Source of the DNA: a virus | Length of the DNA: 27,320 bases | Virus record (IMG/VR): IMGVR_UViG_3300032893_000239 | Span: 1 to 27,320 of that record | Strand: one strand, 5' to 3' | Shown: piece by piece, positions 2,294 to 8,129 of the stretch | How positions within the stretch are numbered: position 1 is the first letter of the stretch | Layout of the letters: each line of letters opens with the position of its first letter | Notes under the pieces: generated by a model | Databases searched by the model: none | What the model saw: only the letters and a program-made list of their open reading frames with translations | Told to the model about the DNA's origin: nothing | Made by a program: the position numbers and the translations under genes

Positions 2294-2491
2294 ATGAACA
2301 TCGGAGTGAAGAACATCTCGAGTCGTCCGACGCCCACGGTCCTTTGGTACTTCGACCACGCATCGAAGGCGATCGTCTCTGCCGTCACCGGTCAGCGCTT
2401 CGCCGTCGAAGACATCGCGGCCGCGGGATGGAACACGAAGGGGCTCGAGCTTCTGCCGTCGATCGACGGGCCGCGCATCGTGTCGCGATGA
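2294..2491 (+). CDS. Hypothetical protein, 65 aa
   Basis: The protein (MNIGVKNISSRPTPTVLWYF ... PSIDGPRIVSR) is compact and probably mostly beta. It is the first gene downstream of the 2259 promoter and has no Shine-Dalgarno, consistent with leaderless translation. The stop is coupled (ATGA 2488-2491) to the next gene. Not recognised. Confidence 0.55.
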   Translation: MNIGVKNISSRPTPTVLWYFDHASKAIVSAVTGQRFAVEDIAAAGWNTKGLELLPSIDGPRIVSR

Positions 2492-2841
2492 TCGTGTCGA
2501 AGCTCACGGTGTCGATGCAATGTCTCGACTGCGGTCGTGACATTGGAATCGTCCGAGCCATCGAAGATGGCGCAGACGTGGGCGCGATGCATGAAGCGAT
2601 GTCACACGAGGTCCTCAGTCGCTCGTATAGGCGCGGATGGCACGAGATCGCCGGGAAAGGCAATCAGTGCGGGCGGTGCCGCGACAAGGACCACGACGAG
2701 GCGGCGCCCGCACCCGCAGCACAACCGCCGGCGCCGAGTCAGCTTCAACTCGAGGACCTGAAGCGTCAGCTCCGCGAGCGCGTGGAGATCGAGGAGTCGT
2801 TGCGAAAGCTGATCGCGCAGTCCGCCGTGATCGCGAAGTAG
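2488..2841 (+). CDS. Zinc-ribbon-like protein with a C-terminal coiled coil
   Basis: The 117-aa product has CLDCG near residue 11 and CGRCRDKD near residue 55, two CxxC knuckles as in a treble-clef or zinc-ribbon fold. A Pro/Ala linker (APAPAAQPPAPSQ) leads to a charged helix (LEDLKRQLRERVEIEESL) likely to form a coiled coil. Such proteins can bind nucleic acid or act as phage modulators of host complexes; this is inference. The start is coupled by ATGA to the upstream gene. Confidence 0.6.
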   Translation: MIVSKLTVSMQCLDCGRDIGIVRAIEDGADVGAMHEAMSHEVLSRSYRRGWHEIAGKGNQCGRCRDKDHDEAAPAPAAQPPAPSQLQLEDLKRQLRERVEIEESLRKLIAQSAVIAK

Positions 2842-2861
2842 AAGGAACGAGGGAGGCCAGC

Positions 2862-3158
2862 ATGCAAGAGGAATTCTGGAAGGTCGTCTGCGACAACACG
2901 ACGACGTACGTGATCGCGCACAACGAAGACGAGGCGCTTGACTTGGTCGACGACCAGGTTGGCTTTTCGGGCGAAGGTGACGAACCGGTCGTGACGAAGC
3001 TCGAGCGACACGAGCTGCTCACGATCACGATCCCCGACACCGACGCCGATCCGCATGGGCTCGGGGTTGGTCAGCACACGAAGACCATCGACGAGTGGCT
3101 CCGCCACGAACGAGAGATCGCCGACATTCGAGGCATCTTCAAGATCTCGGACGACTGA
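2862..3158 (+). CDS. Acidic hypothetical protein, 98 aa
   Basis: ATG 2862 follows the ribosome-binding site GGGAGGCCAGC. The protein (MQEEFWKVVCDNTTTYVIAH ... IRGIFKISDD) is acidic, with EDEALDLVDD and IPDTDADPHG. Small acidic early phage proteins are sometimes DNA mimics or inhibitors, but nothing here is diagnostic. No family recognised. Confidence 0.6.
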   Translation: MQEEFWKVVCDNTTTYVIAHNEDEALDLVDDQVGFSGEGDEPVVTKLERHELLTITIPDTDADPHGLGVGQHTKTIDEWLRHEREIADIRGIFKISDD

Positions 3159-3160
3159 AG

Positions 3161-3269
3161 ATGGCGCACGATCACGTCTACGTCTTCGACCCGAAAAGAT
3201 TCCAGCGAATCGACGTCGAATTCACGTTCGAAGCTCTCCTCGACGCGCTACTCGGGCTCGCGTCCGATG
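3161..3269 (+). other. Coding-like N-terminus whose frame is abandoned near 3267
   Basis: ATG 3161 starts MAHDHVYVFDPKRFQRIDVE FTFEALLDALLGLAS with good third-position G/C. From about 3267 the coding signal moves to another frame (the gene at 3267-3446), while this frame stays open and arginine-rich until it merges with the DUF1643 gene ending at 4033. Either a base was lost or gained, or a +1 frameshift is used, or the two genes overlap unusually. A conservative annotator could draw one CDS 3161-4033. Confidence 0.35.
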
Positions 3270-3446
3270 ATCTCGCAGCGCGCCTTCCGAGGGGAACCCA
3301 TCGTCATAGACTCGTCGACCGAGCACCGCATCTGCGCGCTGACCCCGCTGTCGTTCGTGCTCGCGAGAGGTCGAGCAGCGCTCGGATCGGATTGGCGCTT
3401 CGACCGATCACGGAGCGACGGCGCGAAGTGGTCGTCGTCTCCATGA
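3267..3446 (+). CDS. Hypothetical protein, 59 aa, possibly the 3' part of a frameshifted gene
   Basis: The frame encodes MISQRAFRGEPIVIDSSTEH and then RICALTPLSFVLARGRAALG, with G/C-biased third positions, unlike the overlapping frame. Its stop overlaps the start of the DUF1643 gene as ATGA (3443-3446). There is no clear ribosome-binding site before ATG 3267, which favours it being the continuation of the reading frame that begins at 3161. Family unknown. Confidence 0.45.
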   Translation: MISQRAFRGEPIVIDSSTEHRICALTPLSFVLARGRAALGSDWRFDRSRSDGAKWSSSP

Positions 3447-4033
3447 CAAGGCAGCTCGAGCGCCTGCGCAAGTGGGAAGACGCCGGGTGCGTCGTCCTCG
3501 GCAACGAGAACGCGGGCGCGCTCTTCAGCCGAGATATGGTCCACCGTTACCTGCTTTGGCGCACCTTCAACGGAGACCTTTTCAGCAGCCAAGAGGCCCG
3601 CGGCGCTCTCTCAATCTGCATGCTCAATCCGTCGACGGCGGACCATCTACAGCTCGATCCGACGATCCGCCGCGTCGTCGACTTTGCCTCGCGCGAGGGT
3701 TGCGGAGGCGTGATCGTTCACAACCTCTTCGCGTTGCGATCGACGGATCCCGACGAGCTGACGCGCCAAGCTCTCAAGGGCGTCGACATCCGCGGACCGC
3801 TGAATCTCGACATCCTTCGCGAGCCAGGGTCGCCGCTCGAAGGCGTACGCGTGCGCGTCGGCGCGTGGGGTTCGTTCCCGTCGAAGACGGTGCGCGCGCT
3901 CGCCGTCGACTCGATTGCTCAGTGGTCGCGCTCGCCGTACGCTGTTCTCGGCTTCACGAAGGGCGGCGAGCCGAGACATCCGCTATTCGTTCCGAAGGTC
4001 ACGCCGCTCTCGTGGTGGTCGAAGCGGACGTAG
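3443..4033 (+). CDS. DUF1643 family protein
   Basis: This 196-aa protein contains the DUF1643 signature: SICMLNPSTADHLQLDPTIR (about 54-73), then a Gly-rich turn and IVHNLFALRSTDPDEL (about 88-103). Family members are common in phages and mobile elements and have no established biochemical role; a nucleotide- or DNA-related function has been supposed. I chose ATG 3443 because it is coupled to the preceding stop and because family members begin shortly before the YLLWR strand. The frame is open further upstream to 3161, but that part looks non-coding in this frame. Confidence 0.75.
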   Translation: MTRQLERLRKWEDAGCVVLGNENAGALFSRDMVHRYLLWRTFNGDLFSSQEARGALSICMLNPSTADHLQLDPTIRRVVDFASREGCGGVIVHNLFALRSTDPDELTRQALKGVDIRGPLNLDILREPGSPLEGVRVRVGAWGSFPSKTVRALAVDSIAQWSRSPYAVLGFTKGGEPRHPLFVPKVTPLSWWSKRT

Positions 4034-4042
4034 GAGGGCAAG

Positions 4043-4309
4043 ATGGCAACGAAGAAGTCGAAGGCCGCGGTGATGACACGCTACCGCATCAGCCTGAATG
4101 GCGGAACGGTGCTCGCGTGCGGCGTCGTGCAAGGCGCAGGAGGTCCGATGGTCGGCGTTCCGGGGCTCGAGCGTCTTCGCCGGATGGCGTCGCCGCAGCG
4201 CTCGATCGAGGTGACCGTCTATCCCGAATGGACGGCGCAAGCGAGCGGGCCCGCGGTCGTCGTGAACCTCTCAGGCGCGACCGTCGACATCGAAAGCGGC
4301 GAGCGGTGA
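4043..4309 (+). CDS. Hypothetical protein, 88 aa
   Basis: ATG 4043 is preceded by AGGAGGGCAAG, a strong ribosome-binding site. The sequence begins MATKKSKAAVMTRYRISLNG and is predicted to be mostly beta (GGTVLACGVVQ, AVVVNLSGATVDI). The stop is coupled as GTGA to the next gene at 4306. No family recognised. Confidence 0.6.
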   Translation: MATKKSKAAVMTRYRISLNGGTVLACGVVQGAGGPMVGVPGLERLRRMASPQRSIEVTVYPEWTAQASGPAVVVNLSGATVDIESGER

Positions 4310-4539
4310 GCCTCCTTGTGCTCCTCGCGCTCTGCTTCGGTGTCGGCTTCGTCGCCGGAATGGCGCTGATGGCTCGCGAAGCCGAGCGCCAGCGGCTCGT
4401 GCGCGAGCAACTCGAACCGCCGCGCGAGGTCCAACGCGCGATCAATGACGAGTTTGTGCGTCTTTCGCGCTGCACCTGCCCACGCCCAACCGCGTATCGC
4501 AGCGCGTGTCCGGTGCATCGTGGAGAGGGCTCGTCGTGA
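4306..4539 (+). CDS. Single-span membrane protein, 77 aa
   Basis: GTG 4306 overlaps the previous stop. Residues 2-24 (SLLVLLALCFGVGFVAGMAL...) form one transmembrane helix, followed by a charged helix (REAERQRLVREQLEPPREVQ) and a cysteine-bearing tail (CTCPRPTAYRSACPVH). An N-terminal anchor plus soluble helix resembles i-spanins in outline, but no overlapping o-spanin is present, so I leave it as an unknown membrane protein. After its stop, a seven-codon ORF (4536-4559) links by GTGA and ATGA to the next gene. Confidence 0.6.
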   Translation: MSLLVLLALCFGVGFVAGMALMAREAERQRLVREQLEPPREVQRAINDEFVRLSRCTCPRPTAYRSACPVHRGEGSS

Positions 4540-4555
4540 AGATCGAGCACTTCCG

Positions 4556-4771
4556 ATGACGGCGCCCGCGGTCGTTCACGTCTGGGGCTCGCCAGACGAA
4601 GCGCTCGAAGCTGACGAGATGCTTTGCACCGAGGAGACACCCTTCACCGAAGAGATGCGCGATCGCGTCCGAGTCGCGTTCCATCCGTGGAGCGTGATCG
4701 GTCCTCCTCCGCACTACGACTACGCGTGCCGCTGGTGCCAGACGTCAACTAGGCGAGGTCAGACACAATGA
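4556..4771 (+). CDS. Hypothetical protein, 71 aa, with a CxxC pair
   Basis: MTAPAVVHVWGSPDEALEAD starts at ATG 4556, and the C-terminus has YACRWCQTSTRRGQTQ. A single CxxC plus one earlier Cys might bind a metal. The start shares ATGA with a 7-aa ORF at 4536-4559, and the stop shares ATGA with the next gene, so it sits in a coupled chain. The upstream in-frame ATG at 4445 would overlap the membrane-protein gene and looks spurious. Confidence 0.5.
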   Translation: MTAPAVVHVWGSPDEALEADEMLCTEETPFTEEMRDRVRVAFHPWSVIGPPPHYDYACRWCQTSTRRGQTQ

Positions 4772-5016
4772 AGAAGAACCGCAAGATCGTGGTCATCATC
4801 TCGCTCGTCGACGACGAAGCGAAGAAGGCACTGCCGATCGGCAAGATCGACATCGCAGGCGACGGCGCGCTTGGCGGCATCTCCGTGCGCGCGCGCGACG
4901 TCGGCACCGGCGCGAGCTTCGCGACGGAGCTTCTGCCGTCGCCTGGCCAAGAGCCAAGCGCGTGGACGATCATCGCGCAGGCGATCGAGCGCGTCGCGAA
5001 GGAATGGAAAGGCTAG
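4768..5016 (+). CDS. Hypothetical protein, 82 aa, ending in a tandem repeat
   Basis: The protein (MKKNRKIVVIISLVDDEAKK ... AIERVAKEWKG) starts at ATG 4768, coupled to the previous stop. Its last codons and stop lie in the first copy of a 20-bp tandem repeat (4996-5055), so slippage there would not alter the protein. No family recognised; the beta-rich N-terminal half reads as a small phage accessory protein. Confidence 0.55.
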   Translation: MKKNRKIVVIISLVDDEAKKALPIGKIDIAGDGALGGISVRARDVGTGASFATELLPSPGQEPSAWTIIAQAIERVAKEWKG

Positions 5017-5836: not shown

Positions 5837-5888
5837 GCAAGCCGCTCTACTGACCATCGAGACTTCCCAGCCCTGTTTCCGTCCGACT

Positions 5889-6531
5889 CGACAAACCACA
5901 CCGGACCACACCGACCCGACGCAGTTTCTCGCCCACGCGACCTACCTGGCCGCTCCCCTTCTCTGCGACGCGCCCCGCCGACCCGATGCATCCCGCGTGA
6001 CGTTCCTGCTGCTTCACCGGAACCTTCCTGGCCGACAAACCCAGCCTTCCCGTGGGCGACGTTCCGCTCTCTGCCAACCCGGTACGACGTTCCGAAGCTC
6101 CTCGGGCCAACTCGACAAACCACGCTGCGCCGAATCGACACTCCTGGCCCTTGTGGCCCGTCGTCGACTCGATCCGCCTCGACGTTCCTCGCCCGGTCGG
6201 TTCCAGCGCGACTTACCAGGTCGATTCCTTGCGACAGACCATACCCATCTTGCCCCGAGCCATTGGACGCTCCCAATCATCTCCGAGCCAGTTCGACTTT
6301 CCGCGCTCACTGCGACGTGCCGAGTCGACCCATCATTCCCGCGCCGGTTCGACGACTCCGACAAACCACACACCCGAGCGACGCTCCTGGACCGACCCCG
6401 ACCAGACCGCTCCGAGCCTGGGCGACCCCTGCGACGTACCCTGCCACTACGTTCCGAAGCTCCTCGACTTTCCTTCTCAGCTCGACACGCCGGGCCGCGC
6501 CCGCTCCTCGCCCACCCCCCTGCGACGAACC
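5889..6531 (+). repeat. Gene-free array 1 of the motif CGACnnnCC
   Basis: Nineteen exact CGACnnnCC copies start at 5889, 5938, 5966, 6033, 6057, 6085, 6113, 6136, 6180, 6209, 6232, 6294, 6313, 6359, 6379, 6432, 6465, 6483 and 6523, all on the + strand. There are also near-copies such as TGACGTTCC (5998). The base before CGAC is usually G or T. Intervals cluster around 18-35 bp with a few gaps of about twice that. The sequence between motifs is C-rich, G-poor and variable. No convincing ORF exists here; 5837-6606 has no gene I can support. The promoter of the next gene abuts its right end. Confidence 0.75.
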
Positions 6532-6533
6532 GC

Positions 6534-6562
6534 TTGACACTAGACGGGTGAGGACTAATCAT
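6534..6562 (+). promoter_or_regulatory. Sigma70-type promoter of the RAMP-like gene
   Basis: A perfect -35 box TTGACA (6534-6539), a 17-bp spacer and AATCAT (6557-6562) point right, with the start expected near 6570. The gene at 6607 follows with the strong ribosome-binding site AGAAGGAGAACCAAC. The last array motif (6523-6531) ends two bases before the -35 box, so a protein binding the array could affect this promoter. Confidence 0.6.
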
Positions 6563-6606
6563 GGCCTCGTATCCCGAACGGGAGCCATACCAGAAGGAGA
6601 ACCAAC

Positions 6607-7416
6607 ATGAGCAATTTCAATCGTGACGACTTCAACCCGCGGAAGCTGTACGACATCTATTACGTGAAGCTCCACGCGGTGGATCGGATCTGCGGCGGCC
6701 GCCCGAAGAACCCGGAGCTGATCCGCTCGTGGGTCGAGTCGACGACGGGCCACAAGGACGACCAGTCGGAGGCGCTCACGAAGCAGGCGCTCGAGGAGTT
6801 GGTTGACGAGACGACGGAGAAATCCTGGAACGGCTTCCCCGGCGACGCGCACGGCATCTTCCTCGCGGCTCGCCAGATCAAAGCGCTCTTCAAGGAGTGC
6901 GCGACGATGCGACGCGTGACGGTCGACAAGCGCGGCTCGAAGCAGATCTTCCAGCACGGATTCGAGATCAAGGCGACGCCGGAGCAAGAGAAGATGACCG
7001 GCCATGCCGATCGGATCTACATGACCTTCGACGGCGAGGTGGTGAAGGAGTCGCACGGCTTCGATGAAGGGCCGATCCACGTCCAGACGCCGCAAGGCCC
7101 GCGAACGGCGCTCAAGCGCGTCGACTACGTCGAAGACGTCGACATCGAATTCGAGATCTGGGTGATGGGCACGGCGAGCGCAGAGACGCGTCACGTCGGC
7201 GAAGTCGAGATTATCGACATGCTCACCTTCGGGCAAGAGAACGGCCTCGGCGCGGATCGCTCTCAGGGGCACGGCAAGTTCCGCGTGGTCGACTTCCATG
7301 TGGTCCAGAAGGCTGCGCTGAAGAAGAAGGCGGCGGCGGACGAAGAGACGTCCGCGGAGAAGAAGCCGGCGAAAAAGAACGCCGCTTCGAAGAGCGCCAG
7401 CGCCGACGCGGAGTGA
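6607..7416 (+). CDS. Phage protein with a RAMP (Cas7/Cas6)-like glycine-rich loop
   Basis: This 269-aa protein has an N-terminal segment KLYDIYYVKLHAVDRICGGR, a central GIFLAARQIKALFKECATMR (about 87-106), VQTPQGPRTALKR (about 160-172) and a C-terminal MLTFGQENGLGADRSQGHGK FRVVDF (about 206-231). It ends in a Lys/Ala-rich disordered tail. GLGADRSQGHGKF matches the G-rich loop pattern of RAMP-superfamily RNA-binding proteins. From memory, unnamed actinophage proteins share GPQGPR and ENGLGA-RSQG motifs, but I have not checked this. An RNA- or DNA-coating role is inferred. It has its own promoter and terminator and lies between two CGACnnnCC arrays. Confidence 0.7.
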   Translation: MSNFNRDDFNPRKLYDIYYVKLHAVDRICGGRPKNPELIRSWVESTTGHKDDQSEALTKQALEELVDETTEKSWNGFPGDAHGIFLAARQIKALFKECATMRRVTVDKRGSKQIFQHGFEIKATPEQEKMTGHADRIYMTFDGEVVKESHGFDEGPIHVQTPQGPRTALKRVDYVEDVDIEFEIWVMGTASAETRHVGEVEIIDMLTFGQENGLGADRSQGHGKFRVVDFHVVQKAALKKKAAADEETSAEKKPAKKNAASKSASADAE

Positions 7417-7430
7417 GGTAGATCGATCGA

Positions 7431-7471
7431 GCCCGGAGAGGTCTCGCGCTGGACGCGGTGCCTCTTCGGGC
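7431..7471 (+). terminator. Intrinsic terminator after the RAMP-like gene
   Basis: GCCCGGAGAGG (7431-7441) pairs with CCTCTTCGGGC (7461-7471), 11 bp with one G-T wobble, and is followed by GTTTCGTGTTT. It lies 15 bases after the stop of the 6607 gene, making that gene a single-gene transcription unit. Confidence 0.7.
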
Positions 7472-7491
7472 GTTTCGTGTTTCGACCCTTG

Positions 7492-8129
7492 CGACAAGCC
7501 TATTTCCCGCCAAGTCGGCACGACGGATCAACCTCAATCGAGCCATCTCGATCGACGGGCCTCGCCCAGTCGCGCGACGTACCCCTTCGCTTCTCCCCAC
7601 GACGACACGCCGAGCCAGCTCGCGTCTTTGAGACACACCGCACCTCGTTCTCGCCACATCGACGAGCTAGATCGATCCTGATCGTTGCGACTCACCTCGC
7701 CTCTTGCCTGCCACATCAGGCCGACGCGACAAGCCACTCCACGCCCTTTGCGCATCGGGCCGCGCCAATCAGACGTGACGTTCCGACTCCCACCGCCTTC
7801 GACTCGACACACCTGCGCTACCCGTTCCGCGCCGACCCACGCGACGTGACAGCCCCCGACCTGCCGCGCCCTTCCCAGCCGACGCCAACGCGACGTGCCT
7901 GCATCGCCACGGTCGCATCGACCCTCGACGACAGACCGCTCCGAGCCTGGGCGACGCGCCACGCCCGGTCTCTTCGAATCCATTCCCCTGCGACCTACCC
8001 TGCCACTACGTTCCGAAGCTCCTCGACCTACCACGCCGACGCGCCGCCGCTCCGCCGCGACTAACCAACTCGAACCGCCGCGCGACGAACCAAGCCGCCG
8101 CACTTCGCTCCCCACCCCGTCGACTAGCC
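7492..8129 (+). repeat. Gene-free array 2 of the motif CGACnnnCC
   Basis: Sixteen exact copies start at 7492, 7575, 7603, 7688, 7727, 7805, 7857, 7891, 7929, 7952, 7991, 8024, 8037, 8058, 8083 and 8121, all on the + strand. Two blocks are shared exactly with array 1: 7932-7955 equals 6403-6426, and 7996-8027 equals 6437-6468 except for nothing I can see. Between them array 2 carries about 30 extra bases, as expected for unit gain or loss by recombination. No supported gene exists between 7417 and 8184. Confidence 0.75.

Follow-up and report, generated by a model that had tools for sequence, protein, structure and literature searches.

We analyzed a 27,320-nucleotide (nt) stretch of phage DNA, positions 1 to 27,320 of IMG/VR virus record IMGVR_UViG_3300032893_000239 (the window), in which two arrays of short repeats flank a gene for a RAMP-family protein. 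The gene (positions 6607 to 7416, plus strand) encodes 269 amino acids. Array 1 (5884 to 6533) lies upstream of it and array 2 (7483 to 8129) downstream, both on the plus strand, and each consists of tandem NNNYC pentads that GAC splits into units of a few pentads. We regard the arrays as candidates for guide RNAs. A promoter-like site (TTGACA-17-AATCAT, 6534 to 6562, plus strand) directly follows array 1 ahead of the gene, and a terminator-like hairpin (7457 to 7474, plus strand) lies between the gene and array 2; both are consensus matches only. This arrangement agrees with the initial annotation of the sequence, which had placed one gene with its own promoter and terminator between two arrays.

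The product of the gene is a single small RAMP with an RRM core and a glycine-rich loop (GLGADRSQGHGKF), as the initial annotation had proposed, and the profile, AlphaFold, and Foldseek results agree on this assignment. A profile built from 86 homologues and searched against the PDB returned only RAMPs at the top ranks, including type VII Cas7 (E value, 1.7e-5) and Csm4 (2.6e-5), with weaker matches to Csm3, Cas6, Cas5, and Cmr6. The AlphaFold model has a predicted local distance difference test (pLDDT) score of 88.6, and the nearest solved folds found by Foldseek were type VII Cas7 (2e-7), followed by Csm3/Cmr subunits. The C-terminal tail is Lys/Ala-rich and modeled with low confidence. The protein has no Pfam family, and searches of Pfam, NCBIfam, and PHROGs gave no useful name, the best result being six members near Csm4 (E value, 8e-4).

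The arrays had previously been described by the motif CGACNNNCC, with 19 exact copies between 5889 and 6531 and 16 between 7492 and 8129, all on the same strand and mostly 18 to 35 bp apart. Our recount reproduced the 19 plus-strand copies in array 1 and found 17 exact plus-strand copies in array 2. The single-strand claim was nearly right, with one antisense copy at 6155 to 6163, and the spacings were wider than stated, at 18 to 67 bp in array 1 and 13 to 85 bp in array 2. Spacings of 23, 28, 33, and 38 were preferred in the window and its relatives. A comparison with shuffled sequence had been set beforehand as a check that might overturn the arrays, and the observed counts were far above chance. 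Dinucleotide-preserving shuffles gave means of 2.9 copies for array 1 and 2.8 for array 2 (maxima, 9 and 10), and none of 1,000 shuffles per array reached the observed number. C strongly exceeds G in each array (G/C skew of about −0.2 to −0.3), and both arrays have a 5-nt periodicity (lag-5 z of 3.9 in array 1 and 5.0 in array 2) that was not equaled in any of 1,000 shuffles. No coding signal (lag 3) was seen in the 400 nt downstream of the gene.

Alignment of the arrays on CGAC showed that CGACnnnCC is a fragment of a larger pattern missed by the initial annotation, an array of NNNYC pentads with GAC boundaries. C recurs at +3, +8, +13, +18, +23, and +28, a pyrimidine precedes it in the first pentads, and three free bases lie between. 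The insert reads GAC and is mostly three bases long, so that CGAC is the last C of a pentad followed by GAC and unit lengths are therefore 5k + 3 (23, 28, 33, and 38). Two stretches are near-identical between the arrays (6438 to 6473 and 7997 to 8032, CCCTGCCACTACGTTCCGAAGCTCCTCGAC; 6404 to 6427 and 7930 to 7953, CAGACCGCTCCGAGCCTGGGCGAC), which would reflect either partial copying of one array into the other or retention of the same guide in both. RNA folding of the arrays gave no consistent structure, on average no more than in shuffles, and Rfam found no match in the window and no ribozymes in 12 relatives. We also considered phasing on the DNA half-helix (5.25 bp), which was ruled out because the super-periods were 31.0 and 28/33, not 31.5.

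We collected homologues of the RAMP gene from viral contigs, genomes, and phage records, which gave 179 unique loci. Homologues that lack arrays had likewise been named in advance as a check, which did not overturn the association: of the 161 loci that were not cut by a contig end, 137 had a 5-nt-periodic array no more than 1 kb from the gene. By comparison, 4.5% of control flanks taken 1.8 to 3.8 kb away (n = 286) were periodic, and the strongest of these controls were further arrays themselves. The association of array and gene persists down to about 25% protein identity. The array lies downstream of the gene in 91 loci and upstream in 51, and the motif runs the same way as the gene in those arrays that were fitted. 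In some related loci, strong 5-nt-periodic arrays also occur 1.5 to 4.5 kb from the RAMP gene (L048, about 1500 to 2100; L031, about 1080 to 2220; L056, about 2380 to 4160), and these are possibly separate guide arrays.

The arrays fall into two spellings, GMNNN in clostridial prophages and NNNYC in the relatives of the window, and in both, three positions per pentad vary. Pooled lag-5 z values were 64 for clostridial and 20 for C-rich arrays, and unit lengths are stepped by 5 in each class (26/31/36 and 23/28/33/38, respectively). We fitted a hidden Markov model to 57 C-type arrays, starting from a rough NNNYC guess with insert states of flat emissions. The NNN entropies were 1.99, 2.00, and 1.92 bits, and the insert, mostly 3 nt, was learned as GAC. 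Units in the clade of the window hold about 5 to 8 pentads, those of the window itself being shorter, and one related array (L016) is almost pure CGAC(NNNCC)k. In L116 a 194-nt array stretch is duplicated (4502 to 4896, 93% identity), and internal duplication also occurs in L016, L043, and L069; the arrays seem to grow in this way. The C or G spelling changes 5 times on the protein tree, and shuffling each label over the tree gave means above 40. This agreement between spelling and protein tree suggests that the RAMP protein reads the spelling of its array.

Pentad arrays beside a phage RAMP gene are known from VIPR (Viral Interference Programmable Repeat), whose guide RNAs consist of tandem GGY/NN pentads (PMC13142463 / bioRxiv 2026.04.26.720920). 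That report describes 9 to 16 repeats that end in a structured 3′ tail, allows "a related consensus" of the pentad, gives a DNA recognition code with a one-base skip (xNN, in which the wobble base is passed over), and includes silencing by VIPR type II (PMC13142463). GGTNN pentads are visible beside the Vipr gene of SUSP1 (type II), and we annotate the window protein as Vipr-like.

If the triplets of successive pentads copy contiguous target DNA, the third base of one triplet (N3) and the first base of the next (N1) should show ordinary neighbor preferences despite the two anchor bases between them. N3-to-next-N1 pairs followed genomic neighbor preferences in each array class (permutation Z of 3.5 in both; 0 of 400 permutations). 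The lag-2 fits, from N3 to the next N2, were 3.5 and 2.7, as expected for contiguous triplets, and a reversed-order control was null. In column-shuffled, re-parsed arrays the adjacency signal centered on zero. In-frame stop triplets were depleted to 0.78 (z = −3.4) and 0.73 (z = −2.8), with weaker depletion in other frames; this effect was weak in the clean set of 128 guides and comes from the pooled sets. No adjacency signal was seen across GAC unit edges (n = 738; power was limited), and the signal of clostridial arrays extended into the hexamer at the boundary (Z = 3.5, n = 1,287) and stopped there. Because contiguity ends at the unit edge, we read each unit as one guide. The statistics of both array classes suggest that, joined end to end, the triplets make up a contiguous coding sequence in frame, from which we infer that pairing with the target would be contiguous, without a skipped base.

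One decoded guide had a convincing target. The 20-mer guide of locus L194 (TTCCAGGTCCTGACCAAGCG), which translates as FQVLTKR, occurs exactly in 16 IMG/VR contigs and is in frame in 16 of 16, in proteins that share the FQVLTKR motif. We take this motif to be one found in the phage family DUF5131 (Gp37/Gp68), to which the 16 proteins presumably belong. Four pattern scans, three contiguous and one xNN, yielded this target alone, and it is contiguous. BLAST of the decoded triplets of the window and L016 gave best E values of about 1. Clostridial guides compared with fetched loci under about 11 reading models showed no excess over shuffles except for an array matching its own copy, in an underpowered search of 1 Mb. 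In a 1.9-Mb search with C- and G-type guides, the only long matches came through loci fetched with the L194 guide or with a match to a guide of L162 (near 3448). The L162 guide matched a Salmonella phage at 24 of 24 positions, with an E value of 0.2 and antisense to a gene in a relative, and we treated this match as chance.

In our best explanation, given with high confidence, a tailed phage carries at this locus an RNA-guided system of the VIPR type. The RAMP encoded at 6607 to 7416 would coat RNA with one subunit per five nucleotides, and both arrays would be transcribed from the strand of the gene into guide RNAs. The YC of each pentad would serve as the protein-bound anchor, NNN would carry the information, and GAC would mark the guide edge. 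Once bound to matching DNA in competing phages or mobile elements, the complex would silence that DNA, an activity published for VIPR type II. One option in the initial annotation was that the RAMP-like protein coats an RNA of repeat-spacer-like design. The nature of the product and the presence of an array with most homologues support that part of it; the repeating unit is (NNNYC)k-GAC and not CGACnnnCC. We give an even chance to a more specific proposal, a gapless-code VIPR lineage in which each pentad would hold one whole target codon between two anchor bases, GAC (in clostridial arrays, one extra G) would separate many short guides packed together, and an interrupted RNA would read a contiguous DNA target in coding frame.

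Several observations weigh against this interpretation. Compared with relatives such as L016, the window has more degenerate arrays, and the adjacency effects are modest, with slopes 0.3 to 0.5 of the genomic ones. The L194 target is the sole convincing one, and its guide was picked by eye among the 128 clean decoded guides of the clade, which limits its weight. We found no target for the guides of the window itself, including one common to both of its arrays, and one L016 guide scanned in contiguous and skipped patterns had no match. The SUSP1 Vipr protein matched the family profile weakly by hhalign (E value, 2.5e-5; probability, 75%; 126 columns including the glycine-rich loop), and a structured 3′ tail was not found, no dedicated search having been made at the array ends.

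The closest competitor is a VIPR system with the published one-base-skip code, in which two of the three variable positions would pair and the third, less constrained here, would go unread. Such a code is described, with its skipped wobble base, in the VIPR report (PMC13142463), and the third variable position is biased in some arrays (G at 0.44 in L016). However, pairs of N3 with the next N1 and N2 carry genomic lag-1 and lag-2 preferences that would be unexpected of an unread base, and the third bases of the L194 guide agree with real codons, and we regard the skipped reading as unlikely, if still a serious candidate. More doubtful is an RNA scaffold or decoy that the RAMP coats without any guide function, its variable bases free to drift. 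Near-maximum entropy at the hypervariable positions, fast array divergence with internal duplications, and the missing targets of the window guides would all fit a scaffold, but drift gives no cause for contiguous in-frame coding statistics across the anchor bases, for the break in contiguity at unit edges, or for the in-frame L194 target, and the characterized relatives are guides.

The two other explanations, largely those raised in the initial annotation, fare worse. DNA-level binding sites for the RAMP or another factor (origin iterons, a centromere, a packaging site, or operators) would account for a short motif repeated beside one phage gene, and the window does contain a ParB-like gene elsewhere. 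We nevertheless hold such sites to be very improbable, since the motif keeps the direction of the gene while the array may lie on either side of it, the C- or G-rich spelling follows the RAMP clade, the spacing has a 5-nt quantum, and the fold is that of RNA-binding RAMPs. A Rho-utilization region or an accident of composition, suggested by a transcribed strand with more C than G, is scarcely credible: the periodicity is absent from shuffles, the same structure occurs in G-rich clostridial arrays, and the arrays are linked to one gene family with gene-directed motifs and clade-tracking spelling.

The remaining genes of the window include terminase, portal, and head genes, which mark the locus as phage borne, with long noncoding flanks at the RAMP gene. 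A DUF1643 gene (Pfam E value, 2e-24) lies upstream of the RAMP locus at 3095 to 4033. About 38 C-type relatives (L167, at about 2540 to 3139, and about 37 others) have a conserved gene upstream of that for the RAMP. It was not seen in the window and is a candidate accessory gene, such as the vap gene of VIPR.

If the VIPR-type interpretation with contiguous triplets is correct, the code of these ancestral RAMP guides is not fixed: in some lineages each subunit would read three bases, and no target base would be passed over. Such guides would stand nearer to those of clustered regularly interspaced short palindromic repeats (CRISPR) and would mark an intermediate between guides with gaps and guides without, and the decoding rule would make targets predictable in well over 100 loci of phages and prophages.

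The trp RNA-binding attenuation protein (TRAP) is likewise an oligomer that binds RNA with short motifs spaced 5 nt apart; it differs in its unrelated fold, its few sites, and spacer bases that carry no information. The class 1 CRISPR effectors (type VII Cas7 and Csm3/Csm4) share the RAMP fold, the glycine-rich loop, RNA stepped one subunit at a time, and a repeat-spacer-like organization with quantized lengths. However, the quantum is 5 nt here and 6 nt there, and the spacer bases here are interrupted by anchors. The arrays lack near-identical direct repeats of CRISPR type (about 20 to 50 bp with unique spacers) and contain only NNNYC pentads and GAC, which bears out the earlier remark that they are unlike classical CRISPR, and we recognized no cas1/cas2, multisubunit cas operon, or cas6/cas5 neighbors among the window genes scanned. 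The closest resemblance is to VIPR: a single small phage-encoded RAMP with few accessory genes, and noncoding arrays on either side of the gene whose tandem pentanucleotides combine fixed positions with hypervariable ones. The window has three variable and two fixed positions (NNNYC), whereas VIPR has two and three (GGY/NN). Neither NNNYC nor the clostridial GMNNN is the exact GGY/NN spelling, and spelling alone does not exclude membership. Units in the clade of the window are bounded by GAC, have lengths of 5k + 3, and run for about 5 to 8 pentads within one continuous array, compared with 9 to 16 pentads in VIPR, and our statistics suggest contiguous triplets where the published code skips one base. 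These differences, including the NNNYC spelling, may already be known. We conclude that the window locus is very probably of the VIPR kind, in an apparently different spelling.
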